The notes beneath the pieces were generated by a model, which worked only from the letters and a program-made list of their open reading frames with translations, ran no database searches and was not told the DNA's origin. Of a stretch of DNA of 64,000 nucleotides, positions 39,669 through 54,937 are shown one piece after another. The stretch spans positions 124,001 through 188,000 of the forward strand of contig JALNLA010000003.1 of the NCBI GenBank assembly GCA_023267975.1, given 5' to 3'. Every line of letters begins with the position of its first letter. Within the stretch, counting starts at the first letter, position 1. Source of the stretch: Candidatus Terraquivivens ruidianensis (GTDB lineage Archaea; Thermoproteota; Nitrososphaeria_A; Caldarchaeales; Wolframiiraptoraceae). The translations under genes were made by a program, and so were the position numbers.

Positions 39669-40214
39669 CTAACGTTTGCTCTTCGCTTTGATGCTCCTTA
39701 AAATCGCACATACTTCCTGCTTCTTCTCTTCCGTGACATCGACGGAGACGGCACCGACACTTGGCTGACCGTAGACGACCGTAGAACCCAGCGGAGCCAG
39801 CAGAACAGCAGGAAGCGTCAGCAAATCCTCTTCACCGTCTACATAAACCACGGCACCCTTCCCGGAAGAGATTGCTCCCTTCAGCGCGTTCACCGCCTTC
39901 TTAGATATCGTACCTGCGGGGTTCTCCGTATTAATCTGCAGAACGTTATCCCTAACGAACCTCTCGGAGACCTTTCTCTCGACCTTTCCGTCGATCACGT
40001 AGACGTCCGCACGGATTCCCATCCTGCTAAGCTCCATCGCGGAAAAGTCGCCGACGACTATCAGCATCGCTGGCCCTTTTTCCTTGATGTGTTCAACGAG
40101 TCTCTCCGTCGTTTCAGGCGGCTTACCCTCGAAAAGCTTGCCCAGAGGCTTCCTGACCTTCTCCTTGTCCTCCTCGCCGAAGATTATGTCCTCGTCGAAC
40201 AAGCAACCCGGCAT
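39669..40214 (-). CDS. GTP-dependent dephospho-CoA kinase (DUF359)
   Basis: The 181-residue protein fits the DUF359 family, shown to be the archaeal dephospho-CoA kinase for the last step of CoA synthesis. Family landmarks include MLIVVGDFSAMELSRMGIRADVYVIDGKVERK in pieces, NTENPAGTIS and VVYVDGEEDLLTLPAVLLAPLGSTVVYGQP in pieces. It has no P-loop, as expected. The gene meets S27ae tail to tail, with the nuclease-like gene 31 bases upstream on the same strand. Confidence 0.88.
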   Translation of the reverse strand: MPGCLFDEDIIFGEEDKEKVRKPLGKLFEGKPPETTERLVEHIKEKGPAMLIVVGDFSAMELSRMGIRADVYVIDGKVERKVSERFVRDNVLQINTENPAGTISKKAVNALKGAISSGKGAVVYVDGEEDLLTLPAVLLAPLGSTVVYGQPSVGAVSVDVTEEKKQEVCAILRSIKAKSKR

Positions 40215-40245: not shown

Positions 40246-41100
40246 CTACTGGAGGAGTGTGTTCAACAAGATGTCTTTTTCCCTTAACATGTTTTGGACG
40301 TCCTTGAGCGCTAAAAGCATCCTTTCTATATAGCCGTCCGTCAGCACATCTAGCTTGCTCCTCTCTAACGTGGGCAACGGCTCGATAGCACCCTTTACCT
40401 CTGCAAGCTGTCGCTCGTTAGTCACAACGTAGCATTTTCTCGGAGACCACCTTCTTATACATTCTTGGAGGTTGTACACTGCAGACTTCACCTGACCCTC
40501 CGTATGCACCTCGAAGGCGTAAACGACGGCAGATTCAGGCCTTGCATCCCTCTGCCATACGACGTCTATCCTGATAGGGCCAACCTTATACTCCTCGGAT
40601 GTCGCATAGCCGAGTAGGCTTCCGAGTTCTGCTAGCATGCGCTTTAGTTCGCCGTGTGTCGGAAGTATGTTAACCCAACGATACTTTTTTCTAAACACCT
40701 CCACGGCACCGAGAAGCGTTAGAAAGCGGAGCCTGATATTCGGCTGGGTTGTGCTCCTCCAGCCAGAACCGAGTTTGCGCAACTCCCTCACGATTTCCTT
40801 AGCCTTCATCGGTTTTTTGGAGAGTGTTTCCCTTATCTCACGGAACCCCCAGACTTTATTCTCTAAGTTCTTCAGCAGAAGCCGTGGAGATTTGGTCTTC
40901 AGAAAAAGCTCCCCATCGCTTGTCAGTTTAAGGTTGCCGTACTCATCCACGTCGGCAAGGCCCGTATAACATAGGCTCATCTTCAGACGACAAGTCAACG
41001 TATTCTTTGAAATTCTGAACATTTTCAGGGGTAGTGAACTGGCCAACTCCTCAAGCTTACACGGACTCTTTTGCAGGCGCTCGAGTAACTTCGTAAGCAA
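40246..41100 (-). CDS. Winged-helix protein with a PD-(D/E)XK nuclease-like domain
   Basis: The 284-residue protein has two DNA-binding-like parts: an N-terminal winged helix (about 1-55) and a second helical/winged segment (about 80-130, KPMKAKEIVRELRKLGSGWRS). The C-terminal domain (about 160-250) has the nuclease order IRIDVVW, then VVYAFEVHTEGQVKSAVYNLQE and a strand KCYVVTNE. The site reads D...E-V-H rather than E-x-K, so activity is uncertain. The start is a TTG at 41100. It could be a DNA or RNA nuclease or a repair-linked regulator. Neighbours give no hint. Confidence 0.65.
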   Translation of the reverse strand: MLTKLLERLQKSPCKLEELASSLPLKMFRISKNTLTCRLKMSLCYTGLADVDEYGNLKLTSDGELFLKTKSPRLLLKNLENKVWGFREIRETLSKKPMKAKEIVRELRKLGSGWRSTTQPNIRLRFLTLLGAVEVFRKKYRWVNILPTHGELKRMLAELGSLLGYATSEEYKVGPIRIDVVWQRDARPESAVVYAFEVHTEGQVKSAVYNLQECIRRWSPRKCYVVTNERQLAEVKGAIEPLPTLERSKLDVLTDGYIERMLLALKDVQNMLREKDILLNTLLQ

Positions 41101-41316: not shown

Positions 41317-42108
41317 TCAAAGGTACTGCTTGATTATCTCCAAGAGCTTCTCAGTAACCTGCTCCGGAGAGCCCCTTATGAATTCCCCTTTCCTCTCCCT
41401 CATCTTCGCCTCCTTCAACTCCTTGACTGTCGTATAAGATGCCTTCAAACCAACCTGCTCTTCCGAGACACCGAGCTCGTTCTTGTTCCAGACCTTAAGC
41501 CTGAACTCCCTCTCGGCCCACCTCTTCCTCCTAAAGTCCGGGAACCTTGGCGTGTTGCAGCCGAGCTCCACGCTGAGCAGGACAGGAAGCGGAGCCTCGA
41601 CGACCTCGTAGCCTCCCCTAATCGTCCTCCTCGCCCTTACCTTTCCGTCCACTACCTCGACCTTGTTCACGAAGGTTATCTGGGGTATGCCGAGCCACTC
41701 TGCTATACCTGGCGGTACCTGATTCGTACCTGCATCGGATGAACCCTCGCCGCAGAAGATTATGTCGACGTTCCCTAACTTCTTTATGCCCATAGCCAGC
41801 GTGAACGACGTTGGGTAAGTGTCAGCGCCTGCGAAAGCCCTGTCGCTGAGCAGTATAGCGTCGTCGGCGCCCATCGCAACAGCCAGCTTCAGGTGGGGCT
41901 CGAAAGCCGGAGGCCCCATAGAGAGGACTATGACCTCGCCGTCGTGCTTATCCTTGAGGTTCAGGGCCATCTCGAGCGCGTTCTTGTCGGCCGGGTTTAT
42001 CTCGCTCTCGACGCCTTCACGGATTAAAGTCTTGGTTGTAGGGTCGAGCCTCACCTGCTCGGCCTTCGGCGTAACCTTAACGCAGACCACCATCCTCATA
42101 GCCATCAA
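41317..42108 (-). CDS. etfB: Electron transfer flavoprotein beta subunit
   Basis: The 263-residue protein shows the EtfB pattern: MVVCVKVTPKAEQVRLD at the start, NPADKNALEMALNLKDKHDGE, ILLSDRAFAGADTYPTSFTLA in pieces, the conserved GxGSSDAGTNQVPPGIAEWLGIP in pieces and TVKELKEAKMRER near the C-terminus. Bifurcating EtfB subunits hold an extra FAD in place of AMP; I cannot decide this by eye. It is the last gene of the kor-hdr-etf operon and overlaps etfA by four bases. Confidence 0.92.
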   Translation of the reverse strand: MMAMRMVVCVKVTPKAEQVRLDPTTKTLIREGVESEINPADKNALEMALNLKDKHDGEVIVLSMGPPAFEPHLKLAVAMGADDAILLSDRAFAGADTYPTSFTLAMGIKKLGNVDIIFCGEGSSDAGTNQVPPGIAEWLGIPQITFVNKVEVVDGKVRARRTIRGGYEVVEAPLPVLLSVELGCNTPRFPDFRRKRWAEREFRLKVWNKNELGVSEEQVGLKASYTTVKELKEAKMRERKGEFIRGSPEQVTEKLLEIIKQYL

Positions 42109-43097
42109 CCCTTCAACGATTCAATCCTCTTTATCAGCTCGGGCATTATTTTGAAAAGGTCGCCTACGACGCAGTAGTCTGCATGGTTGAATATGTTGGC
42201 GTCAGGATCTGTGTTTATCGCTATCACGTTCTCTACTTTGTCTATGCCAGATAGGAAGTGAGCTGCTCCGCTTACGCCAGCGACTATTGCCAGCTTGGAG
42301 CTCAGGCCGACGCCTGTTGCACCGACCATTATGTCCCTGGGCGCTATCCCCTGATCTGAAAGGGGCCGTGTGACACCAACCTCACCGCCGATAAGTTCTG
42401 CAAGCCTTTTTATGAGCGATAGGTCGCCGCCTGTTCCTACACCGCCGATGACTACCTTCTCGGCCTTCGATATGTCTATGGCTTTTCCAACTTTTTTCTC
42501 CACGATTCTTGTCTTTATGTCCTCGGGCTTCAACCTGACCTGAACCTCTTCTATCCTGCCCTTCCTAGACTCGTCTGGCGGCAACGCCCTGAATATTCCA
42601 GGCCTTACCGTAACCATCTGCGGCCTTCCCTTGACGCACTTGCAGACCGCCAGTATGCTTCCGCCGAAGCCTGGTACGGAGCCCAGCAGCAGACCGGTTT
42701 CCTCTTCCAGCTCCAGCTCTACGACGTGTGCTATCAGGCCGGCGCCAAGCCTTACCGCTAACCTTCCGGCAAGGTCCACACCGTTGTTCGTCGCGCCGAA
42801 TATGAAGGCATCCGGGTTCCTCTCTTTGACAAGCCCAGCTATGACTTCCGTGTAGGTCTCGGTCATGTAGTTCTCTAGAACTGGAGAGTCTGCGAGAATA
42901 ATGGATTCGGCACCACGCTTTATCGCCTCGTCCGCAAGCCTCTTTACGTTATGTCCTAAAAGTATGCCAGTTACCTCCGCTCCGACCTTGGATGCGAGCT
43001 CCGAGGCTTTTCCCAAAACCTCCAGAGAGACCTCTTCAAGAACCCCTTCGTTCTGCTCGAGGAAGACCCATATACTCTTGTATCCAGCCATACGCAC
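42105..43097 (-). CDS. etfA: Electron transfer flavoprotein alpha subunit
   Basis: The 330-residue protein has the two EtfA domains: an N-terminal alpha/beta domain and a C-terminal FAD domain from about residue 205 with VVIGGVGTGG, GEVGVTRPLSDQG, MVGATGVGLSSKL, VSGAAHFLSGID and AINTDPDANIFNHADYCVVGDL in pieces. It would take or give electrons with EtfB, here in an operon with Hdr subunits and a 2-oxoacid oxidoreductase. It starts with an ATG 4 bases after the HdrD-like gene. Confidence 0.92.
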   Translation of the reverse strand: MRMAGYKSIWVFLEQNEGVLEEVSLEVLGKASELASKVGAEVTGILLGHNVKRLADEAIKRGAESIILADSPVLENYMTETYTEVIAGLVKERNPDAFIFGATNNGVDLAGRLAVRLGAGLIAHVVELELEEETGLLLGSVPGFGGSILAVCKCVKGRPQMVTVRPGIFRALPPDESRKGRIEEVQVRLKPEDIKTRIVEKKVGKAIDISKAEKVVIGGVGTGGDLSLIKRLAELIGGEVGVTRPLSDQGIAPRDIMVGATGVGLSSKLAIVAGVSGAAHFLSGIDKVENVIAINTDPDANIFNHADYCVVGDLFKIMPELIKRIESLKG

Positions 43098-43101
43098 GAC
43101 C

Positions 43102-44250
43102 TCAGCCTAAGGCCCTATCCACCAACTCGGCTAGGTCGAAAACTTGGAGCGGTTTACCGAGCCTTAGCCTCCTGACACTGTCCTCGAAGTTCTGTATGCA
43201 GTATGGGCAGGAGGTCACCATCAAGCCAGCTTCAACTTCTGAGGCCTGGGATACCCTCATGTCCGACGGTCTTCCGCCCTCAGACTCCAGCCACATCCTA
43301 CCACCGCCACCGCCGCAGCAGAGCGTGTCTTGGGCAGAATCCCGCATCTCCACAAACTCTATACCGGGTATACTCTCTAACACCTTTCTCGGAGGCTCTA
43401 CGACGTTATCGTACCTAGCCAGGTAGCACGGGTCATGGTAGGTAACCCTTCCGTCGAGCTTTCGGCTGGGGTGTATCTTGCCGCCGTCGAGCAACTGTTC
43501 CAGCAGTTGGGTATAGTGCAGCACGTTCAGGTCAGCTCCATAACTTGGGTACAGGTTCTTGAAGGTGTTGTAGCAATGCGGCGATATCGTGACCACGAAC
43601 TCGGCGCCGGTCCTTCTGAACTTCTCGGCATTCTCGTTGACTATCTCCTCGAAGAACTCGAGCTCGCCGGCGTGATAAACTGGGTCGCCGCAGCACTTCT
43701 CCTCTTTACCCAGCACGCCAAAGTCCAAGCCCGCGGCGCCAAGAACATTTACCAAGCTCCTCGCGACCTTGTACAGTCTAGGGTCGTAGGGAACGGCGCA
43801 ACCGACGTAGAGTAGATACTTAACGCCCTTAGATGCATCCTTCACTTCCAAGCCCTTTGCCCAAGAAAGCTTTTCGGTCGACTTCACGCCCCATGAGTTA
43901 CCGTTCTCGTAAACGTTCCACAATACCTGCTCCAGCTTCTCCGGCGTCTTCTTCGAAAGGGCCAACAACCTTCTTGTCTTTACGAAAGCATCCGTTATGG
44001 GAACGCCCCTTGGGCACTTGGACTCGCATAGCTTGCACGTTGAGCACAACCATGCTTGTTCAAGAGCATCGAGCATACTCAGTTGCAGAGCCCTTACGAA
44101 CTTTCTTATGTTTAGACGGTGTCCTAATAGCGGATAAGGACAGGTTGCCGTACAGAAACCGCACTGGTAGCAGGGAGTTACCATTTGCCTAATGCTGGCC
44201 AATTCTGGCATGGTAGACGTATCTTGGGATACCAGAATCGGTTTGCTCAT
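43102..44250 (-). CDS. HdrD/HdrBC-like iron-sulfur oxidoreductase (CCG domains)
   Basis: The 382-residue protein joins an HdrC-like ferredoxin part (CYQCGFCTATCP and CSTCKLCESKCP, residues about 27-80) to an HdrB-like part with two CCG domains (YVGCAVPYDPRL...EKCCGDPVYHAGE; YHDPCYLARYD...DTLCCGGGGGRMW...TSCPYCIQNFED). This is the HdrD or GlcF type of fusion. Such proteins carry electrons to disulfides, quinones or other partners. It overlaps the HdrA gene by four bases and precedes etfA by four, so it likely bridges HdrA and EtfAB. Confidence 0.9.
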   Translation of the reverse strand: MSKPILVSQDTSTMPELASIRQMVTPCYQCGFCTATCPYPLLGHRLNIRKFVRALQLSMLDALEQAWLCSTCKLCESKCPRGVPITDAFVKTRRLLALSKKTPEKLEQVLWNVYENGNSWGVKSTEKLSWAKGLEVKDASKGVKYLLYVGCAVPYDPRLYKVARSLVNVLGAAGLDFGVLGKEEKCCGDPVYHAGELEFFEEIVNENAEKFRRTGAEFVVTISPHCYNTFKNLYPSYGADLNVLHYTQLLEQLLDGGKIHPSRKLDGRVTYHDPCYLARYDNVVEPPRKVLESIPGIEFVEMRDSAQDTLCCGGGGGRMWLESEGGRPSDMRVSQASEVEAGLMVTSCPYCIQNFEDSVRRLRLGKPLQVFDLAELVDRALG

Positions 44251-47200
44251 GCCGCGGCCTTCACCCCCTTCAATTTCTGCGGCGTTGAGCGTATCTCATC
44301 GATTGGAAGTGACTTGATGAACTCGGCAACCTCCTTCATCTTGTTGGCAAACCTCTTGCCTTCTGCTGCGCTGTTCCAGTGAAGCTGGAGCCTGTTTGGG
44401 TCTATCCCTCTTGCCTGGAGCATCTTCTTCCAGCGTTCCATCCTCTTCTCGGTGTTCAGATTTGCGTAATTGTAGTGGCAGTCCTGAGGCCAGCAACCAG
44501 TTACGATGACGGCTGCTATACCTCTCTCGAAGGCCCTCATGACGAACTTCTGCGATACCCTGCCGCTGCACATGGTCCTGATGATTCTGACGTTCGGAGG
44601 ATACTGGAGCTTCTCTATACCGGCTTGGTCAGCTCCGGCATACGAGCACCAATTGCATGCGAACACTATCGCCTTCTTCTCTGGCTCGACCTCGGTCGCC
44701 GCATCTACCTGTGCCAAAATCTGCTCATCCTCGAAGCCGTACTGGTTCATCGCATCTCTCATGCACTCAGCCACGCAAGTTCCGCAGCCATGGCACATGG
44801 CCTGAACAAGCTCCGTGCTCTTTCTCAGCTCACCCCTTATCGCATGGAACGGGCACACCTCGGCGCATCTGAGGCAGTAGATGCATTTTTCTTGCTCTAT
44901 CCTTGCGGTGAAGGGTTCTAGGGTTATACTGCCGGCCGAGACCAAGGCTGACGCTTTGGACGCGGCGGCGAGCGCCTGTGCCACAGACTCTTCAACACCC
45001 TTTGGACCCTGGGCTGTTCCAGCTATGTAAACGCCCTCGACGGACGTATCCACGGGTCCTAGCTTCGGATGGCTCTCGAGGAGGAAGCCCTCCATGTCTC
45101 TTGGTAGTTTCAGTTGCTCGATGATGTTTTTTATAGTCGTGTTGGGCGACAAGCCTACGTTAAGGACGAGCAAATCCGCTGGGATTGCCACCTCCCCGCC
45201 CTGCAGCTCATCCTTAACAACGACTAGACCGTTATCGAACCTAATCACGGATTCGGGCAGAGCGTCTTGGGGATACTGGAAGAACTGGACTCCCAGCTTG
45301 CTTGCCTTCTCGTAAAGCTCCTCGCCGTTTTTGTTGAATGCCCTTATGTCCTTGTAGACTACCGTTACGTTCTTACCCATCTCCGCTAACCTTATCGCTT
45401 GCTTCAGCATAGACTGGCAGCAGTATCTCGAGCAACCCTTATCCGGTGTCCTTGAACCGATGCACGATACGAACGTGATGTTATTCGCATCCAAGTTGTT
45501 ATTCATCATGGACTCTAATTCTAAGGACGTGACTACTTTGCCGTTGCTTCCGTAACCAAATTCCTTCGGCTGATAGGGTACGGCTCCCGTGCACATCACG
45601 ATGGCGCCGACGTCGAGCGTTTTACCGTTGCTCAAGACTACGTTGAAGTTACCGACGAAGCCTGTAACCATCTGTACATCGACACCCGTCATGATGTGAG
45701 CGCCCGACTGTTCGAGCTCTGTCCTCTTCATCTCCAGAATCTTTTTGCTATCCACACCTTCTGGTGCTATTTCGCTTACGAATCTCAGCATGCCACCGAG
45801 CTCATTCTCGCGCTCGATGAGGTATGTCTCTATTCCCTGCCTGGCCAAGTTGGTAGCCGCCGACATACCAGCTATGCCTCCGCCTACTACGAGGACGCGT
45901 TTCGTCACCGGATAGGTTACCGGCATGAGAGGTTTCAGCCTCTTCGCCTTCTCGACGGCCATCAGTATCATGTCCTTGCACTTCTCGGTGGCTTCCTTTG
46001 GATAATCTCTGTGAACCCACGTGCAGTGGTTCCTTATGTTAGCCATCTCGACCATGTATGGGTTTATGCCAGCCATCATGGCGGACTTCTGGAAGGTAAC
46101 CAAGTGTGTCTTGGGGGAGCAGGCAGCTATTACGAGCCTGTTTGCGTTATGCTCCTTCATCTGCTGTGCTATTTTCTTTAGACCATAACCGGCGCAAGAG
46201 TACATCGTATTATCCGCGTAGACCACTCCGGGTATGTTTCTTGCAAATTCTACGAGCTCTTTTATGTCGGCAACGCCAGCTATATTGGAGCCGCAGTGGC
46301 AGATGTTCACGAGAACTCTTGGCTCCACCGAAACTTCTTTCTGTTCAGGAATTTCCTCCTTGGGCCATCTCCTTTTCTTAACAAAAGTCATGGCCTCGGC
46401 TGCAGCAGCTCCACCCTCTTGAACGGAATCCGGTATGTCCTTCGGGCCCGATGTACAACCACATACGTATACTCCAGGCTTTCCGGTAGATACAGGGTAG
46501 CCGGGTATCGTCTTAAAGAACCCATACTCATCGAGCTCTATGCCCAATATTTCTGCGAGCTTCTTGTTGTCCCTGCTGGGTAGCGCCGCGGTAGCCAGCA
46601 CGACCATATCGTACTTGCGCTGCACTAGCTCGCCCCTTTCAGTGTCCTCGTAAATCACCCTGAGACCGTCTTTGCCCGGAATTATTCTTCCGGGCTTACC
46701 CCTTATGAATTCGACGCCCTCGCTTTTTGCTCTTTGGTAGAAGCTGTCAAATCCCTTTCCATATGCCCTTATGTCCATGTAGAGTACGGATACATGTTTT
46801 ATACCATGTTCTACGGTCTGTAGAGCCTCTTTAATCGTAAGCATGCAGCATATCCTCGAGCAGTAGGCGCAGTACCTTCTATCCCTCGAGCCGACGCAAA
46901 GCACGAAGAGTACGCTCTCGGGCTCCATTCCATCGCTCGGCTTCGTTATGTGACCTCCACCCGGACCGCTCGAGTTTATGAGTCTCTCGAACTCTATCGA
47001 CGTGAGTATATCAGGATGCCTTCCGTAGCTGTATTCGGTTATGACGCTCGGGTCGAATATCTCGAAACCCGTTGCGACGATTATCGCCTTTACCTTCTTT
47101 TCTATGACCTTGGGTTTCATGTTGAAGTCTATGCATTTCGGTCCGCAGACCTCCATACATCTGTTGCACGGAAGGTAGTTTGGAGGCTTGTTTAGGCAGT

Positions 47201-47666
47201 GCTCTATGTCTATTACGTATGCGCCAGGCTCTGACTGGGGTATCGGTGTGTATATCGCCTTCCTCGCTCCCATCCCAAAGTCAAACTCGTTGTGCAGAAC
47301 TACTGGGCATACCGGGACGCAGTCGCCGCATCTCGTGCACTCGCTCGTCACGAACCTTGGCTTCTGGAGTATCTTCACCGTGAAGTCCCCTGCTGAGCCG
47401 TTTACCTCTAGGAGCTCGGCGAGCGATATTACCTCTATGTTGGGTGAGCGCATGACCTCTCCCATCTTAGGTGCCTCTATGCAGATCGAGCAATCCAGCG
47501 TCGGGAAGTTCTTGTCTAACACTGCCATCTTCCCTCCTATGGTCGGCGACTTCTCCACCAAGACGACCTTGACGCCTGCCTTCGCTAAGTCTAAGGCCGC
47601 CTGTATGCCAGCTATGCCCCCTCCGACTACGAGCACAGAATCCGCATCCTCAGACAACTGCACCAC
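44247..47666 (-). CDS. hdrA: HdrA'-HdrA-MvhD fusion protein
   Basis: The 1139-residue protein contains two HdrA modules and an MvhD module. Module 1 (about 1-440): FAD motif VVGGGIAG (13-20), Cys pair in LDCSICIEAPKM (59, 62), ferredoxin CTRCGDCVPVC (110-120) and CNRCMEVCGPKC. Module 2 (about 450-985): the HdrA N-terminal domain (NICHCGSNIAG, MYSCAGYG, AACSPKTH), FAD motif (593-600) and two ferredoxin sites CIYCLRCAEVC and CHGCGTCVAEC (928-968). MvhD (about 998-1085): FACNWCSYAGAD, RTMCSGR, GCWPQDCHY. The likely start is GTG 47666 or TTG 47657, which is better spaced from GAGGAGG. HdrA is the flavin-bifurcating subunit; MvhD normally links it to a hydrogenase or dehydrogenase. Confidence 0.93.
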   Translation of the reverse strand: MVQLSEDADSVLVVGGGIAGIQAALDLAKAGVKVVLVEKSPTIGGKMAVLDKNFPTLDCSICIEAPKMGEVMRSPNIEVISLAELLEVNGSAGDFTVKILQKPRFVTSECTRCGDCVPVCPVVLHNEFDFGMGARKAIYTPIPQSEPGAYVIDIEHCLNKPPNYLPCNRCMEVCGPKCIDFNMKPKVIEKKVKAIIVATGFEIFDPSVITEYSYGRHPDILTSIEFERLINSSGPGGGHITKPSDGMEPESVLFVLCVGSRDRRYCAYCSRICCMLTIKEALQTVEHGIKHVSVLYMDIRAYGKGFDSFYQRAKSEGVEFIRGKPGRIIPGKDGLRVIYEDTERGELVQRKYDMVVLATAALPSRDNKKLAEILGIELDEYGFFKTIPGYPVSTGKPGVYVCGCTSGPKDIPDSVQEGGAAAAEAMTFVKKRRWPKEEIPEQKEVSVEPRVLVNICHCGSNIAGVADIKELVEFARNIPGVVYADNTMYSCAGYGLKKIAQQMKEHNANRLVIAACSPKTHLVTFQKSAMMAGINPYMVEMANIRNHCTWVHRDYPKEATEKCKDMILMAVEKAKRLKPLMPVTYPVTKRVLVVGGGIAGMSAATNLARQGIETYLIERENELGGMLRFVSEIAPEGVDSKKILEMKRTELEQSGAHIMTGVDVQMVTGFVGNFNVVLSNGKTLDVGAIVMCTGAVPYQPKEFGYGSNGKVVTSLELESMMNNNLDANNITFVSCIGSRTPDKGCSRYCCQSMLKQAIRLAEMGKNVTVVYKDIRAFNKNGEELYEKASKLGVQFFQYPQDALPESVIRFDNGLVVVKDELQGGEVAIPADLLVLNVGLSPNTTIKNIIEQLKLPRDMEGFLLESHPKLGPVDTSVEGVYIAGTAQGPKGVEESVAQALAAASKASALVSAGSITLEPFTARIEQEKCIYCLRCAEVCPFHAIRGELRKSTELVQAMCHGCGTCVAECMRDAMNQYGFEDEQILAQVDAATEVEPEKKAIVFACNWCSYAGADQAGIEKLQYPPNVRIIRTMCSGRVSQKFVMRAFERGIAAVIVTGCWPQDCHYNYANLNTEKRMERWKKMLQARGIDPNRLQLHWNSAAEGKRFANKMKEVAEFIKSLPIDEIRSTPQKLKGVKAAA

Positions 47667-48198
47667 CTCCTCTAGCGTGCCTGACGCCTTCCATGAAGGC
47701 CTTCTCGTTGAGCTCTATGGCCTTGGGGAACCTTCTCCTTATCACCTTGAGCAGAGACTCGTGCTTCACGATGCCGGTAACTTCTGAGAATGCTCCGAGC
47801 ACCACTATGTTGGCGATTATCCTCCTTCCGAGCTGCTCGGCTATCTTGGTGGCTGGAAGTCCCACCATCTTTATTCCTTTAACAGTAGACACGTCCACAA
47901 GTCCGCTGTCGTATATGAGTTGCTTCCTCGGTATCCTACCTTCCTTCCAGCTCCTGTCAAGACCTTCCTGCGACATAACGATTAGCACGTCGGGCTTTAC
48001 AACGAGTGGGAAGTCTATCTGCTCGTCGGATATCACGACGTCTGCCCTTGACCATCCGCCAACCTGTTCTGGCCCGTAGGCTATGCTTAACGCGGCATCC
48101 TTTCCCTCCTCTAAAACCGCGGCCTCTCCGAGTATCTGCCCACCCCTGATTATACCCTGGCCGCCGAAGCCGAACAGGCTTATGTCCCACCTAACCAT
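47650..48198 (-). CDS. korC: 2-oxoacid:ferredoxin oxidoreductase gamma subunit
   Basis: The 182-residue protein has the gamma-subunit start SLFGFGGQGIIRGGQILGEAA in pieces and ASxxPEQVGGWSRADVVISD-type segment (YGPEQVGGWSRADVVIS). It is the fourth gene of the delta-alpha-beta-gamma order typical of 2-oxoglutarate:ferredoxin oxidoreductases. It overlaps korB by eight bases and hdrA by 17. Confidence 0.92.
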   Translation of the reverse strand: MVRWDISLFGFGGQGIIRGGQILGEAAVLEEGKDAALSIAYGPEQVGGWSRADVVISDEQIDFPLVVKPDVLIVMSQEGLDRSWKEGRIPRKQLIYDSGLVDVSTVKGIKMVGLPATKIAEQLGRRIIANIVVLGAFSEVTGIVKHESLLKVIRRRFPKAIELNEKAFMEGVRHARGGGAVV

Positions 48199-49057
48199 AC
48201 GGCTTCCTCCCCTTCATAGCAATCTCTATCAATTTTCTATCCATGTCGTTGTAGGACGGCTTTTCTATGTGGACGAAGTTGCCCACGATAAGCGGCTTAC
48301 CGGGTCTCAGGTCTATATCGACCTTCCTCAGGTCTGCTTCGTGCTCTACGACGCATGCCTCCCTGAAGTACTTCATCATGTCCATGCCCGTCGGAAAGTT
48401 GTTGTCCTCGCCATACTGAGTCGGACATGGCGATACGACTTCTATGAATGCAAAGCCGTTTACCTTCATGGCCTTGAGTATAGCGTCGGTCAGTTGACGA
48501 ATGTGTAACGTCGTCCACCTCGCGACGAAGGGAGCGCCGAGCGAGGCTACCAAAAGCGGTAGGTTGAAGGAATACTCTATCATGCCGTAGGGAGCCGTTG
48601 ACATCTTCGAGCCTATGGGCGTCGTGGCTCCGTACTGTCCACCGGTCATCCCGTAAGTAAAGTTGTTGACTAGGACGACGTTGAAGTTGTGGTTCCTCCT
48701 GATGGCATGTATGAAGTGGTTTCCGCCTATCGTCACCAAATCACCGTCACCTGCTATCACGGTTATCTCAAGATCGGGCTTCACTATGTTCATGCCTACG
48801 GCGAAGGGTATTGCCCTGCCATGCGTGGTATGGTAGGAGTCTATGTTCATGTAGCCCGGAAGCCTTGAGGAGCAACCTATGCCAGATACGACCACGTGTC
48901 TCTCAGGCGGTATCCCGCTCCTCTTTATCGCTTCTACGTAACACTTCATAACTATGCCTATTCCGCAACCGGGACACCATATGTGGGGTATCCTATCTGC
49001 CCTTATCAGCTCATCGTCAGGATGCTTTGTCGCTAAAACTTCCTTCGGCATGCGCAT
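48191..49057 (-). CDS. korB: 2-oxoacid:ferredoxin oxidoreductase beta subunit
   Basis: The protein of about 288 residues binds thiamine pyrophosphate: HIWCPGCGIGIVMK (substrate end with CPGCG), VSGIGCSSRLPGY, TTHGRAIPFAVGMN and the TPP motif GDGDLVTIGGNHFIHAIRRN followed by NNFTYGMTGGQ. The ATG at 49057 overlaps the korA stop by one base; a GTG at 49060 is the alternative. The beta subunit carries TPP and, in four-subunit forms, lacks extra iron-sulfur ligands beyond the CxxC. Confidence 0.93.
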   Translation of the reverse strand: MRMPKEVLATKHPDDELIRADRIPHIWCPGCGIGIVMKCYVEAIKRSGIPPERHVVVSGIGCSSRLPGYMNIDSYHTTHGRAIPFAVGMNIVKPDLEITVIAGDGDLVTIGGNHFIHAIRRNHNFNVVLVNNFTYGMTGGQYGATTPIGSKMSTAPYGMIEYSFNLPLLVASLGAPFVARWTTLHIRQLTDAILKAMKVNGFAFIEVVSPCPTQYGEDNNFPTGMDMMKYFREACVVEHEADLRKVDIDLRPGKPLIVGNFVHIEKPSYNDMDRKLIEIAMKGRKPYG

Positions 49058-50205
49058 CACCTCGATACTGACCTAATCGCATCGAGTATAACGTCCGGCG
49101 TCTGTACCGCACCAGGGGCCCAGCTTAAACCGATGACGAGACACTCAGCAACCTCCCTTATGGGATGGATCATCTGACCCATGTTTATCTCGGGAACTAG
49201 GATTACCTTGGCCTGCTCGCTTACCTTCCTGACAACTTCCTCCGGGAAAGGCCACACCGTGATTAGCCTTAGCATACCAGCCTTGATACCTTCGGACCTT
49301 GCCACCTTTACTGCTTGGTATGCCGGCCTAGATGTTATACCATAGGTTATCACGACTATGTCGGCATCGTCCAGCGTGAAGCGCTCCACCTCCCATATCT
49401 TTTCGGCGTTGTTCCTGATTTTTGATACCAAATGCTTTACACACCAAGTCGAGACCTCGTGCGTGTAGTAGGGGTAACCCTTCTCATCGTGCGTTAGGCC
49501 GGTGACGTGTATCCTGTATCCCATGCCTGCTAGCGCCATCGGGGCCACCTCGTACTTCGCGTCGAACGGCTTAAAGTCTGGAACGCCCGGCGGAACGTTG
49601 GGCAACTTCCTATTCACTATCTTTATCTCTTCATGCGGCGGTACGACCAATGGGCCATACATATGACCAATCGTCTGATCGGCCAACACGATGACCGGTT
49701 GTCTGTACTCCTCAGCCGCGTTGAAGGCCTTTATCGTAAGGTCGAAGAACTCTTGGACACTGTTCGGAACGTAGGCTATGGCTTCATAGTCTCCGTGCGA
49801 GCCCCACCTAGCCTGCATCATGTCGCCCTGCCCAACCAGCGTCGGTATGCCAGTACTCGGACCCCCTCTCTGGACGTTCACTATGACGCAGGGCGTTTCT
49901 ATCATCATGCCAAACCCTATATTCTCCTGCATCAATGAAAAGCCTGGGCCGGACGTAGCCGTCATAGACTTTACGCCAGCGTTCGAGGCACCTATGATGG
50001 CCATTATGCTGGCTATCTCATCCTCCATCTGTATGAAATGACCGCCGACCTGCGGAAGCCTGTAGCTCATCCACTGCGCAATTTCGTTGGAGGGCGTTAT
50101 CGGGTATCCAGCGAAAAACCTACAGCCGGCTATCAGAGCAGCTTCGGCGCATGCAATATTTCCTTGCATGAAGTACTTTCCTGGAGGAATTAAACCATCA
50201 GTCAT
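49057..50205 (-). CDS. korA: 2-oxoacid:ferredoxin oxidoreductase alpha subunit
   Basis: The protein of about 382 residues has the domain I motif GCRFFAGYPITPSNEIA, ATSGPGFSLMQENIGFGMM in pieces, PTLVGQGDMMQARWGSHGDYE in pieces and a C-terminal domain II (VVITYGITSRPAYQAV, WPFPEE). The frame opens further upstream (50256), but the ATG at 50205 follows a perfect GGAGGTG site lying inside the end of korD and overlaps the korD stop (ATGA). This decides the start. SGPG and QGD motifs and gene order favour 2-oxoglutarate as substrate. Confidence 0.93.
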   Translation of the reverse strand: MTDGLIPPGKYFMQGNIACAEAALIAGCRFFAGYPITPSNEIAQWMSYRLPQVGGHFIQMEDEIASIMAIIGASNAGVKSMTATSGPGFSLMQENIGFGMMIETPCVIVNVQRGGPSTGIPTLVGQGDMMQARWGSHGDYEAIAYVPNSVQEFFDLTIKAFNAAEEYRQPVIVLADQTIGHMYGPLVVPPHEEIKIVNRKLPNVPPGVPDFKPFDAKYEVAPMALAGMGYRIHVTGLTHDEKGYPYYTHEVSTWCVKHLVSKIRNNAEKIWEVERFTLDDADIVVITYGITSRPAYQAVKVARSEGIKAGMLRLITVWPFPEEVVRKVSEQAKVILVPEINMGQMIHPIREVAECLVIGLSWAPGAVQTPDVILDAIRSVSR

Positions 50206-50489
50206 TCTTTCACCTCCTTTACAAATATCGCAAATTCTGGACAGACCCATTCGCACATGCTACAGGCGACGCAGGAGTCTTCCTTGCCGGGCTTGACCCT
50301 TGGATAGTGGTATCCCTTGTGGTTTATGCTATCCGACTTTTCTAGGACCGAGTTCGGGCAGAGTTCTATGCAGTATAGACACTCTTTACATCTATTAGGT
50401 ATTATGTGGATGTTACCCTTTGGAACCTTAAAGGCACTGATGTTTATCGGCTTTCGCTCCAAAGCCAGATACTTCTGACGCGTGACCAA
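50202..50489 (-). CDS. korD: 2-oxoacid:ferredoxin oxidoreductase delta (ferredoxin) subunit
   Basis: The 95-residue protein is a two-cluster ferredoxin: CKECLYCIELCP (about 34-45) and CVACSMCEWVCP (about 73-84). It is the first gene of an eight-gene minus-strand operon (korDABC, hdrA, hdrD-like, etfA, etfB). It passes electrons from the thiamine-dependent alpha-beta core to ferredoxin or directly to a partner complex. Confidence 0.92.
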   Translation of the reverse strand: MVTRQKYLALERKPINISAFKVPKGNIHIIPNRCKECLYCIELCPNSVLEKSDSINHKGYHYPRVKPGKEDSCVACSMCEWVCPEFAIFVKEVKE

Positions 50490-50564
50490 AATTATCTCTA
50501 TTATTTGAATAGCGCTCTTAGGTAAATAATTTATTTGCTGATAATGGTATGTTATGTTTATATT

Positions 50565-50585
50565 ACACTATATATAGTATAATTA
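50565..50585. promoter_or_regulatory. TATA region between the kor operon and its divergent regulator
   Basis: The AT-rich segment CACTATATATAGTATAAT serves the plus-strand gene at 50595 with a distance that predicts a leaderless mRNA. It is nearly palindromic (ACTATATATAGT), so it may also read the other way. The kor operon TATA is probably the TTATTTACC-type segment near 50520-50535. Confidence 0.5.
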
Positions 50586-50594
50586 TGGGTTAAG

Positions 50595-51596
50595 TTGAAA
50601 AGGGGCAATACGCTCAAAGGCTTTTTTGCCCTTCTTGAAAGCTTCTTTCCTCATGAATGGAACGAGAACACATATATACGTAGCCCTCCTTTTCTGCTCT
50701 TTAAGACAGGTAGCTCAGCAATACTGGATGTCGACCTTCTTTACGATTCGGTCATCGAGCATGCCTTGAACAACGCTGGCATGAAGCTTATAGGAGGTAA
50801 TTCTTACTTTTTGTTAATCCCCTCCGTCCAAAGAACCCTTACGATGTTTGACTGGTTTGTAAGACGTAGCTGGCGTAAGGCAGAGTACGTCATACTGTGG
50901 TCCATCTTGAATTTGATGAAGGGCGAGCAAGAATGTAACTTAAGCATCGAGCAAGTATGCATGCGAAGTGGGTTTGACCAAACAACGTGTACAGAAGTCC
51001 TCGGCTTGCTTGGTATTAAACTGGATGGAAGTAAATTCACAATATCGAGGGAGAAAGTTTTCTCACTCATAAAAGAGCTACTACGCACGTTGCCAAGCTG
51101 GATCGAGGAGAACGTCATGGATTTTGTATGCTCTAACGTAAACATCTCTGCCGCTGACGTCCATTCGTACCTATCGTGTTACGGTCTAAGCCCAAGCTTG
51201 ACTTATAAGATACTGAGAAAGCTAAAGTCTGAAGGTTACATTAGGGTAGTGAGGCACGTGAGGGTAAAATCGAAGGGACCGATGCGTGAGTTGATGTCTT
51301 CCGATTGTAGAAAATGCTTCTTCGGTTACTCATCCCCCATTAACTGTTTTAAAGCGAGCTTCTGCCAGCTCGAGAGGCTGGTGGAAAGGTTGATGGGCCG
51401 GCCCATAAAGATGCATGAGGCTGAAGAGCTCTATCAAGAACTCAGCAAGCTACCTTTTAACGAAAAAACGTTAAGGTCCGTCAACAAGGCATTGGTCCTT
51501 GCATTGGAGCTCTCAAAAAGGTTAAAGGAGAAGAACGTTGCGATGGTTCTACGAAAGATGGGCACGTCTCTAGATTTTAAGATACCTAATATATAG
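50595..51596 (+). CDS. Winged-helix protein with a four-cysteine motif, possible redox regulator
   Basis: The 333-residue protein starts with a TTG. Residues about 95-135 and 175-220 look like winged helices (AEYVILWSILNLM...LSIEQVCMRSGF; NISAADVHSYLSCYGLSPSLTYKILRKLKSEGYIRVV in pieces). From about 233 it has C-x2-C-x10-C-x5-C in CRKCFFGYSSPINCFKASFC, a spacing that could hold an iron-sulfur cluster or zinc. A helical tail follows. It stands alone between two divergently arranged 2-oxoacid oxidoreductase operons, so redox- or Fe-S-sensing control of them is a reasonable guess. No family is recognised. Confidence 0.62.
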   Translation: MKRGNTLKGFFALLESFFPHEWNENTYIRSPPFLLFKTGSSAILDVDLLYDSVIEHALNNAGMKLIGGNSYFLLIPSVQRTLTMFDWFVRRSWRKAEYVILWSILNLMKGEQECNLSIEQVCMRSGFDQTTCTEVLGLLGIKLDGSKFTISREKVFSLIKELLRTLPSWIEENVMDFVCSNVNISAADVHSYLSCYGLSPSLTYKILRKLKSEGYIRVVRHVRVKSKGPMRELMSSDCRKCFFGYSSPINCFKASFCQLERLVERLMGRPIKMHEAEELYQELSKLPFNEKTLRSVNKALVLALELSKRLKEKNVAMVLRKMGTSLDFKIPNI

Positions 51597-51659: not shown

Positions 51660-51962
51660 ATGGATATTTATTGTAAGTGTAAAGACTGTAATTATTGGTT
51701 ACCCCTCGACGTCTTACCTATACTCGGAGAGTGCCGCAACCTCGAAAGCGTAAACTTTGGTAAAGCTGTTTTTCAGGACGATACTCCATGCAAAAACTTC
51801 AAGGAAAGGACTTTTGTTGACGTTGAGTTTTACTGGTGTAAGGACTGCAGAGTAACTCTTTATCGCGAAGACCTTAAATTGCACGAAGGGCATAAAATTT
51901 TTATTGGAACCTCCACGTTATCCGTTGAGGATGTAGTGGAGCACACGTTCGCAGGCGATTGA
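51660..51962 (+). CDS. Cysteine-rich metal-binding protein leading the por operon
   Basis: The 100-residue protein has cysteines at YCKCKDCNYW, GECRNLE, TPCKNF and YWCKDCRVTL, suggesting one or two metal sites. The end is acidic and helical. It starts at an ATG after a CTTTTAAAGG TATA-like element and ends only two bases before porC, so it is likely co-transcribed with porCDAB. It may be a small electron carrier or a regulator; I do not recognise the family. Confidence 0.62.
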   Translation: MDIYCKCKDCNYWLPLDVLPILGECRNLESVNFGKAVFQDDTPCKNFKERTFVDVEFYWCKDCRVTLYREDLKLHEGHKIFIGTSTLSVEDVVEHTFAGD

Positions 51963-51963
51963 A

Positions 51964-52527
51964 GTGAAAAAACTGGTGGAAGTAAGATTTCACGGAAGGG
52001 GTGGCCAAGGTGTCGTCACGGCCGCGAGGCTTTTGGCCGAGGCTTGCCTTTTAGAAAACAAGTATTCGCTTTCTTTCCCAGAGTTCGGTCCTGAGCGTTC
52101 TGGTGCACCCGTGAGGGCTTACGTCAGGATATCAGAAGAACCTATAGAAGTCAGGTCTTTGGTCTACGACCCGGAGATAGTCGTCTCGATAGACCCAAGG
52201 ATTTCCTCTTCTACTGAAATACTGATGGGTTTAGATGAAGAAGGTACCGTTGTTATAAATTCAAAGAACGTCAGCGACTCTCTTTTGAAAGCCATATCTT
52301 CTAAACCAAGGGTAAAGCTTTTCTACTTGGACGCAAGGGGCATAGCCCTCTCCTTGGGCGATGCTAGGTTCGAAAACTCGGCGATGCTGGGAGCCGTCGC
52401 TAAAGCAACAGGAGTCGTATCTCTGGGTTCGCTGGAGTCGGTCTTAAAAACGAGGTTCAAGGGGACAGTCCTCGAGAATAACCTTAAAGCGATGCAGTTA
52501 GGATATGATAAGGTGGGACAAGCCTGA
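51964..52527 (+). CDS. porC: Pyruvate/2-oxoacid:ferredoxin oxidoreductase gamma subunit
   Basis: The 187-residue protein has the gamma-subunit start VRFHGRGGQGVVTAARLLAEA in pieces and SFPEFGPERSGAPVRAYVRIS in pieces. The start is a GTG at 51964. Gene order gamma-delta-alpha-beta is that of pyruvate or 2-ketoisovalerate oxidoreductases. Its stop overlaps the delta-subunit start. Confidence 0.93.
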   Translation: MKKLVEVRFHGRGGQGVVTAARLLAEACLLENKYSLSFPEFGPERSGAPVRAYVRISEEPIEVRSLVYDPEIVVSIDPRISSSTEILMGLDEEGTVVINSKNVSDSLLKAISSKPRVKLFYLDARGIALSLGDARFENSAMLGAVAKATGVVSLGSLESVLKTRFKGTVLENNLKAMQLGYDKVGQA

Positions 52528-52799
52528 TGGTAAAGGTTGAGACAGCCATCCTTCCTGGCGGTGTTGTAAGCAGGCCGGGTTCCACGACCGATTACAAGAC
52601 TGGAACTTGGAGGGTTAAGAAGCCAACAGTGGATTTGAACAAATGTACGGGTTGCCTTATATGCTGGATATACTGCCCTGAGCCGGCCATTCTGAAAAGG
52701 CACGACGGTAAAATCGAGTTTAATTACGATTACTGCAAAGGTTGCGGCATATGCGCCGAGGAATGTCCTCCTAAGGCCATAAGCATGGTGGAGGAGTGA
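52527..52799 (+). CDS. porD: Pyruvate/2-oxoacid:ferredoxin oxidoreductase delta (ferredoxin) subunit
   Basis: The 90-residue protein has the POR-delta N-terminus (SRPGSTTDYKTGTWRVKKP) and two [4Fe-4S] sites CTGCLICWIYCP and CKGCGICAEECP. It moves electrons from the PorAB core to ferredoxin. Confidence 0.94.
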   Translation: MVKVETAILPGGVVSRPGSTTDYKTGTWRVKKPTVDLNKCTGCLICWIYCPEPAILKRHDGKIEFNYDYCKGCGICAEECPPKAISMVEE

Positions 52800-52805
52800 G
52801 GAGGG

Positions 52806-54002
52806 ATGTCACTTCTTCAACCCAAGACCCTTAAACCGATGTCGACTTCGGAGGCGGTTGCGTACGCGGTTAAGCAGACAAACGTTGACGTCATAGCTGC
52901 CTACCCGATCACACCGCAGACGATAATAGTCGAGCGGCTTAGCGAGTACGTCAACAACGGTGAACTCGATGCCGAATACGTTGCCGTCGAGTCGGAACAC
53001 TCCGCGATGTCTGCATGTGTGGCCGCAAGCCTTACCGGCGCGAGAGTTTTCACATCGACTGCCAGCCAAGGACTTGCGCTCATGCACGAGGTCCTCTATA
53101 TCGCTTCTAGCCTAAGATGTCCAATCGTCATGGCTATCGCGAACAGAGCACTATCCGCGCCCATAAACATCCACTGCGACCACTCCGACGTTATGGGCTC
53201 GAGAGACGCTGGATGGGTACATATATTTGTAGAGAATGGCCAGCAGGCATACGACAGGATTTTTCAAGCGTTCAGGCTGGCAGAGGACGAGGACATACTT
53301 CTTCCAGTCGGAGTAAATATCGATGGTTTCTTCCTCTCGCATGCCGTCGAGGGCATCGCGACCATATCGGATAATGAGGCAGCGATGTTCCTTCCGCCCA
53401 GAAGGACAAAGTATTACGTCGATTCTTCGATGCCCATGACGTTCGGTGCCTTCGCGCTACCGGATTGGTACTTTGAGATAAAGGAACAGGTAGCAAGTGC
53501 GATAGAAAAGGTTCCGAAGAAGCTGGCAGAGGTGGAGAAGACCTATTATCAGATGACCGGTAGGATGTACGGCCATGTTGGTGCCTACAAGACCGAGGAT
53601 GCCGAGGTTGGCTTAGTATGTGCAGGCTCGGCGGCCGCTACGGCAAAATTTGCCATCTCGAGGCTAAGGGAGAAGGGCATTAAAGCAGGGCTGCTGAGCA
53701 TCAGGCTCTTCAGACCCTTCCCGGTTGAGAGCATACTCCCCCACGTGAAGGGCATGAAGGCCTTGGTTGTGATGGACAGAGCGATGAGTCCGGGTGCACC
53801 GTCTGCGCCGATTGGCCAGGACATAAAGACCATGCTGTACGATGCTGGCATCAACATACCAGTCGCTAACTTTGTCTATGGACTTGGAGGTAGGGACATC
53901 TCGGCCGCAGAGTTTGAGAGCATTATCCTAAAGATGGTAGAAGACTTGAGGTCAGGAAGGCCTATAGAGAGAGGCGTGAGGTACTGGGGGTTGAGGTCCT
54001 AA
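52806..54002 (+). CDS. porA: Pyruvate/2-oxoacid:ferredoxin oxidoreductase alpha subunit
   Basis: The 398-residue protein has VIAAYPITPQTIIVERLS, EYVAVESEHSAMSACVAASLTGARVFT in pieces, STASQGLALMHEVLYIAS and NIHCDHSDVMGSRDAGW in pieces. This last set is typical of PorA and VorA rather than KorA. Domain II and III follow, ending with GLGGRDIS. It overlaps porB by one base. Confidence 0.94.
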   Translation: MSLLQPKTLKPMSTSEAVAYAVKQTNVDVIAAYPITPQTIIVERLSEYVNNGELDAEYVAVESEHSAMSACVAASLTGARVFTSTASQGLALMHEVLYIASSLRCPIVMAIANRALSAPINIHCDHSDVMGSRDAGWVHIFVENGQQAYDRIFQAFRLAEDEDILLPVGVNIDGFFLSHAVEGIATISDNEAAMFLPPRRTKYYVDSSMPMTFGAFALPDWYFEIKEQVASAIEKVPKKLAEVEKTYYQMTGRMYGHVGAYKTEDAEVGLVCAGSAAATAKFAISRLREKGIKAGLLSIRLFRPFPVESILPHVKGMKALVVMDRAMSPGAPSAPIGQDIKTMLYDAGINIPVANFVYGLGGRDISAAEFESIILKMVEDLRSGRPIERGVRYWGLRS

Positions 54003-54937
54003 TGCTGGTAGGTGAGGTTAAGTCGATAAAGGAACTTTATGGCTTGGATCTAATAGCTCCGGGCCATAGAGCGTGCGCCGGCTGCGGTGCCCTTGTAGCC
54101 GTGAGACAAATCCTGATGGCCTCCAAGAAGCCTCTCATCGTGGTGAACGCCACGAGCTGCTTAGAAGTGACCAGCACGCCATACCCGCAGACGATGTGGA
54201 AGGTCCCTTGGGTCCACCTGTTGTTCGAGAACGCTGCCACAGCTGCGTCAGGCATAGAGGCTGCGCTGAAGGCCCTATCTAGGAAATACGGCCGCCAAGA
54301 GCATTACATCATAGCCTTTGGCGGCGACGGTGGCACGTTCGACATAGGCATACAGGCGCTCTCCGGAGCCCTCGAAAGGGGCCATAGGTTCCTTTATGTA
54401 TGCTACGACAACGAGGCATACATGAACACGGGCATACAGAGGTCTGGTGCGACGCCGCTAGGAGCGGCCACAACTACGTCGCCGGTAGGCAGCAAGATAG
54501 TGGGAAAGGTACAGAATAAGAAGGACCTGCTAGAGATTGTTGCGGCCCATAGGATACCGTATGCCGCTACGGCTTCGCCTTCGCATTGGAAAGACCTTAC
54601 AAACAAGGTGAGGAAGGCGCAGAGTTATGATGGGCCATCTTTCATCCATGTCATCGCACCATGCAACAGGGGATGGTACTTTGACCCGAGCTATACGATA
54701 AAGGTAGCAAGGCTGGCCGTCGAGACGAGGTACTGGCCGCTCTACGAGGTGGAAAACGGAAGGTACAGGATAACCCACTCAGTTCCAAGTCCTAAGCCTC
54801 TGGAGGAATTCCTGAAGGTGCAGAGAAGGCTCAGCCACATGCTGCTTCCAGAAAATGCTGAGGTACTCGAGAGGCTGAAGGCGTACGTAGACGAAAGATG
54901 GGAGAGGCTCCAAAAACTTTCTGCTTGCTTTACCTAA
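54002..54937 (+). CDS. porB: Pyruvate/2-oxoacid:ferredoxin oxidoreductase beta subunit
   Basis: The 311-residue TPP-binding subunit has GHRACAGCGALVAVRQ, NATSCLEVTSTPYP, the TPP motif FGGDGGTFDIGIQALSGAL and YDNEAYMNTGIQRSGATPLGA in pieces. This is the PorB type, which has an added C-terminal arm. Together with PorCDA it interconverts pyruvate and acetyl-CoA with ferredoxin. Its last four bases overlap the metallophosphoesterase gene on the other strand. Confidence 0.94.
   Translation: MLVGEVKSIKELYGLDLIAPGHRACAGCGALVAVRQILMASKKPLIVVNATSCLEVTSTPYPQTMWKVPWVHLLFENAATAASGIEAALKALSRKYGRQEHYIIAFGGDGGTFDIGIQALSGALERGHRFLYVCYDNEAYMNTGIQRSGATPLGAATTTSPVGSKIVGKVQNKKDLLEIVAAHRIPYAATASPSHWKDLTNKVRKAQSYDGPSFIHVIAPCNRGWYFDPSYTIKVARLAVETRYWPLYEVENGRYRITHSVPSPKPLEEFLKVQRRLSHMLLPENAEVLERLKAYVDERWERLQKLSACFT

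Follow-up and report, generated by a model that had tools for sequence, protein, structure and literature searches.

An eight-gene archaeal operon that joins a 2-oxoacid oxidoreductase to a double HdrA-MvhD flavoprotein, an EtfD-like protein and EtfAB

Known complexes built around the flavoprotein HdrA end in a hydrogenase, a formate dehydrogenase, F420 enzymes, MetFV, BamBC or a disulfide, and the known bifurcating electron transfer flavoproteins (Etfs, formed by EtfA and EtfB) carry a bifurcating flavin of their own. It has been proposed that bifurcating HdrA is marked by a lysine and a glutamate, K409 and E356, at N5 of the flavin (PMC12054007). In the type II HdrA clusters of methane-metabolising archaea there are two TrxR/FAD domains per HdrA, usually with K409 in both, and often MvhD, and these clusters carry Molybdop, FdhB and F420 partners (PMC12054007). 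Fusions of the HdrA-HdrA-MvhD type are also already known (PMC11237513). Here we analyse a window of 64,000 nt from Candidatus Terraquivivens ruidianensis (contig JALNLA010000003.1, positions 124,001-188,000, forward strand), a member of the Wolframiiraptoraceae, Caldarchaeales (Aigarchaeota), whose genome comprises 1.30 Mb in 8 contigs and is 97% complete. Positions 41317-50489 of the window hold eight minus-strand genes coding for the 2-oxoacid oxidoreductase subunits KorD, KorA, KorB and KorC, an HdrA'-HdrA-MvhD fusion, a protein with two CCG domains (the CCG protein), EtfA and EtfB. An initial annotation had read them as a single operon in which Kor is combined with an HdrA flavoprotein and EtfAB, which is borne out by our analysis, and the operon proved to be conserved across archaeal phyla.

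The operon shares several elements with MvhAGD-HdrABC and Fdh-HdrABC(-Fwd), namely an HdrA flavin site with the K409/E356 pair, the [2Fe-2S] adaptor MvhD and HdrC-like clusters, and the coupling of a low-potential enzyme to HdrA is also found in Fdh-HdrABC(-Fwd) (Fwd there, possibly Kor here). Unlike in those systems, the double HdrA is fused to MvhD, the apparently non-catalytic CCG protein takes the place of HdrB, the operon encodes neither a hydrogenase nor a formate dehydrogenase, and EtfAB would stand at the high-potential end. The type II clusters resemble it in their paired TrxR/FAD domains and in MvhD; by contrast, Kor and EtfAB are the partners here and the K409 equivalent is found in the first HdrA domain only. 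A comparable plan is that of the class II benzoyl-CoA reductase BamBCDEFGHI, where a low-potential enzyme, an HdrA/HdrBC-like hub and an NADH-type module are brought together. In the present operon Kor would replace the tungsten enzyme BamBC, and EtfAB the NuoEFG-like BamGHI; the likeness is one of modular plan. BamD and BamE are homologous to HdrABC (PMC13328260).

All eight genes are present with the domains initially annotated (Pfam, NCBIfam), at intergenic distances of -55 to +4 nt, and the only non-coding gap is a stretch of 105 bp at the head of the operon. When archaeal genomes were searched for the eight-gene order, it was found to recur well beyond this genome. It is complete, with gaps near zero, in 8 further Caldarchaeales genomes from three families; at a ninth Caldarchaeales locus (G029) the contig ends inside EtfA and EtfB is not seen, and in another genome (G019) etfB runs off the contig. 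Within the class, the operon is patchy (10 of the 44 genomes sampled). More distantly, the order is complete in the metagenome-assembled genomes (MAGs) archaeon RBG_16_50_20 (L045), Nitrososphaerales JOPF010 (L047) and Euryarchaeota CSMAG_355 (L049), and it is found in a Heimdallarchaeota MAG (L051) with EtfB running off the contig end, while three loci (L048, L053 and L059) carry operons that are partial at contig ends. When 250 genomes of the phylum were searched with a profile, EtfA of the operon type scored about 500 bits in ten Caldarchaeales genomes and 392-407 bits in four of Vulcanisaeta (G118, G169, G144 and G149), and no other Etf exceeded 335 bits. The two Vulcanisaeta loci that were read, those of G118 and G169, have the eight genes in order. 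G118 matches the type strain of Vulcanisaeta distributa (PMC3035369), a cultured hot-spring archaeon, and another genome, from the same family as the window (G026), matches Candidatus Geocrenenecus arthurdayi.

Outside the window, the operon proteins are 35-66% identical to those encoded here and their divergence co-varies. For the seven larger genes, pairwise distances among 12 loci are correlated at r = 0.83-0.94, a range of which no value was reached in any of 500 permutations. The recurring order, the near-zero gaps and these correlated distances rule out a chance neighbourhood: the eight genes are a co-inherited unit and not a local accident. No EtfA relatives were found in viral contigs.

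A different kind of evidence comes from natural deletions, as the window's genus has five other species and all of them lack the full operon. In four of them (G031, G032, G033 and G035) a divergent regulator gene and korDABC are kept at the same locus, with korA, korB and korC 81-87% identical to the window genes, but the genes for HdrA, the CCG protein, EtfA and EtfB are missing en bloc and korC directly adjoins the homolog of the next gene downstream of the region (39669-40214 in the window). In the fifth species (G034) the regulator, Kor, HdrA and CCG genes have been lost, and what remains is a disrupted etfB and 21 residues of etfA. In G018, from genus g12, the operon is reduced to a CCG gene remnant of about 100 residues. 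Because the eight-gene order occurs in distant lineages, the simplest reading of the sister-species pattern is a loss of HdrA-CCG-EtfAB. Kor is separable, and the remaining four genes behave as a unit.

The fusion protein corresponds, as judged from its sequence, to a type II HdrA plus MvhD. It scores 1192 bits with the HdrA2 model and 158 bits with FlpD/MvhD, it matches the HdrA structures 8rvu and 5odc and MvhD chains, and both GGGxAG motifs and all five MvhD cysteines are kept. When the residues were mapped through an alignment with 8rvu/5odc, K279 and E227 were found at the positions of K409 and E356. Both are invariant in the N-terminal half (HdrA') across the alignment, K279 also being present in Vulcanisaeta, whereas the C-terminal half has an invariant E718 and a lysine position that varies (K/Y/S/N/Q/H). 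Only the first HdrA flavin site is thus predicted to hold the bifurcation pair, which supports, at the level of sequence, the bifurcation-type flavin system initially annotated in HdrA. The absence of hydrogenase and acyl-CoA dehydrogenase (ACAD) genes, also part of that annotation, holds for the window but not for the genome, where NiFe hydrogenases are encoded at C4:96 kb (MvhAG-type) and C5:41 kb, and ACADs at C4:124 kb and C1:95 kb. An MvhAG hydrogenase is not supported as the obligate partner of MvhD, since 5 of the 16 carrier genomes, four of them of high quality, have no PF00374 match, namely three Vulcanisaeta (99% complete), G007 (93%) and G256.

EtfA and EtfB are overall nearest in sequence to bifurcating Etfs: EtfA scores 338 bits with CarE versus 154 with human ETF, and EtfB 253 bits with CarD versus about 100-130 with canonical proteins (100 with human ETF). 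The nearest sequences in the PDB are those of CarCDE, Bcd-EtfAB, Ldh-EtfAB and EtfABCX. We compared motifs taken from the literature (PMC9232219, PMC10734219, PMC12630350). It has been shown that the arginine of the EtfA motif RPxFGG (R205 in LctC, R140 in 7koe_B) makes contact with N5 of the bifurcating FAD and that its loss abolishes both bifurcation and confurcation (PMC9232219, PMC10734219). Unlike in those Etfs, this position, whose mapping was checked on R140 of 7koe_B, is a valine in all 19 operon EtfAs (17 aligned, including that of the window, plus two from Vulcanisaeta). The missing arginine would rule out bifurcation by EtfAB, which had been annotated as a second bifurcating flavin system. 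Two findings had been named beforehand as able to overturn the initial annotation, an Etf without the residues of bifurcating forms and a gene order confined to one genome; the first was observed for the key residue, and the second was not.

Other features of EtfAB point to its possible partners. The NAD(H)-binding motif of EtfB, RxFxG (PMC9232219), is kept as in the bifurcating complexes: [RK]xFx[GA] is found in nearly all orthologs (that of L053 ends in L), with F91, A92, A94 and D95 invariant, and the position of Gly123 is small (A/G/S), as needed for beta-FAD. In EtfA, the alpha-FAD histidine present in all other Etfs compared is replaced by phenylalanine in nearly all operon members (QH to HF) and by tyrosine in L053. 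This histidine contributes to the high potential of alpha-FAD (PMC12630350), and its replacement is in line with a lower-potential partner. Additionally, the Etf partner here would be the CCG protein, as opposed to the acyl-CoA, lactate or quinone enzymes of bifurcating Etf complexes. We infer that EtfAB is a non-bifurcating Etf, probably NAD(H)-reactive and tuned to lower potential.

The AF2 model of the CCG protein (pLDDT 87.7) has as its best Foldseek match EtfD, the mycobacterial ETF:menaquinone oxidoreductase (9ojn; TM 0.85 over the query); HdrB and HdrC rank lower, and EtfD also comes first in profile comparison (263 bits). EtfD has a non-catalytic noncubane [4Fe-4S] cluster bound by five cysteines and capped by His583, as well as a linear [3Fe-4S] cluster on four other cysteines, and has been proposed to pass ETF electrons along its clusters (PMC13083937). 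The CCG protein shares with it the CCG and [4Fe-4S] fold and the noncubane (D2) ligands including the capping histidine, C275, C311, C312, C348, C351 and H225 being invariant in 17 orthologs. By contrast, the ligands of the linear (D1) cluster are incomplete: at the first CCG site Ser223 stands for cysteine in all members, and further cysteines are lost in the Asgard and Geocrenenecus members. The residues S223-P224-H225 are invariant in the same 17 orthologs and found in Vulcanisaeta too; the resulting SPHC motif was rejected as a hallmark unique to this operon, as it is found in HdrA-linked CCG proteins generally, bacteria included.

The CCG protein also differs from EtfD in its genetic tie to HdrA and in having no membrane or heme domain, as its 382 residues comprise Fer4 and CCG domains alone and align to the soluble part of EtfD. 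In catalytic HdrB and HdrD, both CCG motifs are complete and the noncubane clusters are open, which is not the case here. According to the initial annotation, the CCG protein has an unknown acceptor, either a disulfide or a quinone. With one site His-capped, the other degenerate and no membrane part, it looks like an electron wire, and such an acceptor is unlikely there.

The reading that we prefer, with a probability of roughly 0.45, is that two separable modules are expressed together, KorDABC and a soluble HdrA'-HdrA-MvhD/CCG/EtfAB module that would link electrons from Kor or ferredoxin to NAD(H) or to substrates of ETF. KorDABC would oxidise a 2-oxoacid to acyl-CoA and CO2, delivering low-potential electrons via KorD, and the second module would take them directly or through ferredoxin and exchange them with NAD(H) at EtfAB. 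The path would run, reversibly, from Kor or ferredoxin through the ferredoxin domain of HdrA, the HdrA' flavin and the HdrC-like cubane clusters of the CCG protein to its noncubane cluster, and from there through the alpha-FAD and the beta-site flavin of EtfAB to NAD(H). Since EtfAB would act as a non-bifurcating NAD(H) port and the CCG protein as a wire, HdrA' would be the sole site of any bifurcation or confurcation, with the third couple at MvhD or at the ferredoxin port. As the hosts are mostly heterotrophic, the direction is likely that of 2-oxoacid oxidation.

Several observations weigh against this scheme. For instance, in place of the beta-FAD motif DGDTAQVGP of bifurcating Etfs, the operon EtfBs have D[AGS][GS]T.[QHN]VPP (SDAGTNQVPP in the window, where D, T, V and the final P are kept), which makes beta-FAD and NAD binding uncertain. 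MvhD is left without an assigned partner. Finally, all 16 carrier genomes searched have ACAD genes, which in one genus lie close to the operon; this speaks for EtfAB having an acyl-CoA partner.

This last point is the basis of the main rival, the confurcation of electrons from 2-oxoacids and acyl-CoA, which we consider unlikely. According to this alternative, the operon would encode an amino-acid-oxidation confurcase: the acyl-CoA formed by Kor (e.g., branched-chain) would be oxidised by an ACAD, EtfAB would be a canonical ETF reduced at about -10 mV, and the two electron pairs, formed 1:1, would be merged at HdrA' onto a mid-potential carrier such as NAD+. ACAD genes adjoin EtfBA-CCG-HdrA in four bacterial clusters (L057, L062, L067 and L094), in the Caldarchaeales genus g12 an acyl-CoA synthetase and an ACAD are encoded about 5 kb from the operon, on its divergent side, and the bifurcation arginine may be missing from canonical ETF as well. 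However, in most carriers the ACAD is neither in the operon nor nearby. ACAD genes are also common in non-carriers (33 of the 44 class genomes have them), and the association with the operon is weak (Fisher p = 0.046, without phylogenetic correction); co-occurrence is too weak a proof of an acyl-CoA partner. Moreover, the operon EtfBs keep the NAD motif, which is missing from the bacterial EtfBs linked to CCG proteins and HdrA, and the operon EtfAs have lost the alpha-FAD histidine.

A simpler scheme would dispense with bifurcation at HdrA, the operon coding for a plain 2-oxoacid (or ferredoxin):NAD+ oxidoreductase with an outcome like that of the NADH-dependent phenylglyoxylate dehydrogenase. 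The 2-oxoacid couple, near -500 mV, reduces NAD+ unaided, NAD-linked 2-oxoacid oxidoreductases exist, and no enzyme for a third substrate is encoded in the operon. Nevertheless, we regard this scheme as improbable, as it leaves the invariant K279/E227 pair and the intact MvhD cluster unexplained. It could also be argued that only regulation is shared, with Kor, HdrA-CCG and EtfAB being separate enzymes with separate partners that are co-transcribed for one growth mode; KorDABC does persist alone, and a conserved neighbourhood is no proof of contact. Against this stand the recurrence of the order, with near-zero gaps, among distant phyla, the co-varying distance matrices, the loss of HdrA-CCG-EtfAB as a unit and the confinement of the EtfA signature residues to the operon clade among the sequences compared, and we give this alternative little credence. 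The obligate megacomplex of the initial annotation, in which HdrA and EtfAB would both bifurcate and the CCG protein would pass electrons to a disulfide or quinone, is very improbable in spite of the tightly packed, often overlapping genes and the overall affinity of EtfAB to bifurcating Etfs, because four sister species hold KorDABC without the rest, no operon EtfA has the arginine and the CCG protein is soluble, capped and degenerate at one site.

Table 1. Features of the Kor-HdrA-CCG-Etf operon and its upstream region, in window positions.
Feature	Position	Strand	Description
etfB	41317..42108	-	electron transfer flavoprotein beta; ETF
EtfB DRAFAGAD segment	41821..41844	-	NAD(H)-binding RxFxG kept (RAFAG)
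etfA	42105..43097	-	electron transfer flavoprotein alpha; ETF, ETF_alpha
EtfA V141 codon	42675..42677	-	position of the N5 arginine in bifurcating Etfs; VPGFGG here
CCG protein	43102..44250	-	382 aa; HdrC-like 2x[4Fe-4S] (Fer4) + CCG x2; EtfD-like, predicted soluble
SPHC motif	43573..43584	-	S223 replaces D1-cluster Cys; H225 = EtfD His583
HdrA'-HdrA-MvhD fusion	44247..47666	-	1139 aa; two TrxR/FAD domains + C-terminal MvhD (FlpD)
HdrA' K279 codon	46830..46832	-	= HdrA K409, N5 lysine of bifurcating FAD
HdrA' E227 codon	46986..46988	-	= HdrA E356
korC	47650..48198	-	gamma subunit; POR domain
korB	48191..49060	-	TPP-binding beta subunit; TPP_enzyme_C; GDG...NN motif
korA	49057..50205	-	alpha subunit, POR_N + PFOR_II; probable ATG start at 50205
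korD	50202..50489	-	two-[4Fe-4S] ferredoxin-type delta subunit, TTG start; Fer4 domains; orthologs in the same place
Intergenic region	50490..50594		105 bp, A+T-rich, carries ACTATATATAGT; common to operon and divergent regulator gene
Divergent gene	50595..51596	+	about 333 aa; probable regulator; helix-turn-helix-like segment; conserved Cys179/238/241/251

The four-subunit KorABCD set is complete, with alpha, TPP-binding beta, gamma and ferredoxin-type delta subunits (Table 1). Because GGAGGTG lies upstream of ATG 50205 and the orthologs have 381 aa, korA probably starts at this codon and the longer GTG frame to 50256 is not used; the 55-nt overlap of korD and korA is then reduced to 4 nt. 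The substrate class predicted for Kor is that of 2-oxoacids. Specificity for 2-oxoglutarate is not established, because KorA passes only the generic 2-oxoacid model PRK08659 (540.8 bits, cut-off 411) and KorB, KorC and KorD pass no cut-off, KorD reaching 61.5 bits with OGOR_delta, under the cut-off of 125.

The divergent gene at the head of the operon probably codes for a DNA-binding regulator with four conserved cysteines, which may control the operon as an Fe-S or Zn protein. Its product has no Pfam match and gives weak winged-helix fold matches. The gene adjoins the operon in Caldarchaeales and in Nitrososphaerales JOPF010, and stays beside korD even where HdrA-Etf has been lost. Directly behind it in the window, and preceded by a small gene of 100 aa, there is a cluster for a second four-subunit 2-oxoacid oxidoreductase of the pyruvate type (Por; 51660-54937, plus strand), which also adjoins the Kor-HdrA-Etf operon in Geocrenenecus. 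At the other end, downstream of etfB, a minus-strand ORF of 284 aa (40246-41100) has no Pfam match and no relative in the other genomes examined, and is missing at the sister-species locus. In the Nitrososphaerales MAG, etfB is directly followed by a gene for a TPP-dependent decarboxylase/synthase-type enzyme (13082-14722 of L047).

Related clusters were found both in the same genome and in bacteria. Another locus of the genome (L134, G000:C4:88001-107900) has an MvhADG-HdrABC-type hydrogenase, behind which lie several further CCG proteins with CPGC motifs and an FAD-linked (FAD_binding_4) oxidase; these may be enzymes of the lactate/glycolate type. Additionally, contig C2 (L135/L136) carries an EtfD-like CCG protein of 673 aa with EtfBA, as well as an EtfCX-BA (FixABCX-type) set with the bifurcation arginine (RPPFG). 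CCG-EtfB-EtfA-HdrA without Kor occurs in bacteria: six bacterial loci (L100, L123, L067, L062, L094 and L057) combine a CCG protein, EtfBA and HdrA, some with ACADs. In a Chloroflexota locus (L077, 11171-16971), two EtfAB pairs, one of the bifurcating type (RPAFGG) and one not, surround a CCG protein and HdrA. No description of this wider HdrA-CCG-Etf family was found in the literature searched. Likewise, the Kor-HdrA-CCG-Etf operon is not described in the full-text literature searched, most subscription papers being outside its reach. Earlier work describes the HdrA fusion, Etf complexes and type II HdrA clusters whose partners differ, and the eight-gene operon is apparently a new variant of HdrA-based electron transfer.

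The operon joins the HdrA and EtfAB families with one flavin system that still appears fit to bifurcate. It is possible, although rather doubtful, that HdrA-CCG-EtfAB is a distinct class of flavin-based bifurcating or confurcating systems, in which bifurcation would have moved from EtfAB into the double HdrA, EtfAB would connect to NAD(H) or acyl-CoA without bifurcating itself and a 2-oxoacid oxidoreductase would directly supply the low-potential side. If this were true, anaerobic archaea would oxidise 2-oxoacids with energy coupling without a membrane, a hydrogenase or a disulfide. As the operon is complete in a genome matching Vulcanisaeta distributa and sister species exist without its HdrA-Etf half, these ideas are directly testable, and the operon offers a test case for the recombination of bifurcating modules and for the way in which anaerobic heterotrophic archaea dispose of the electrons from 2-oxoacids.

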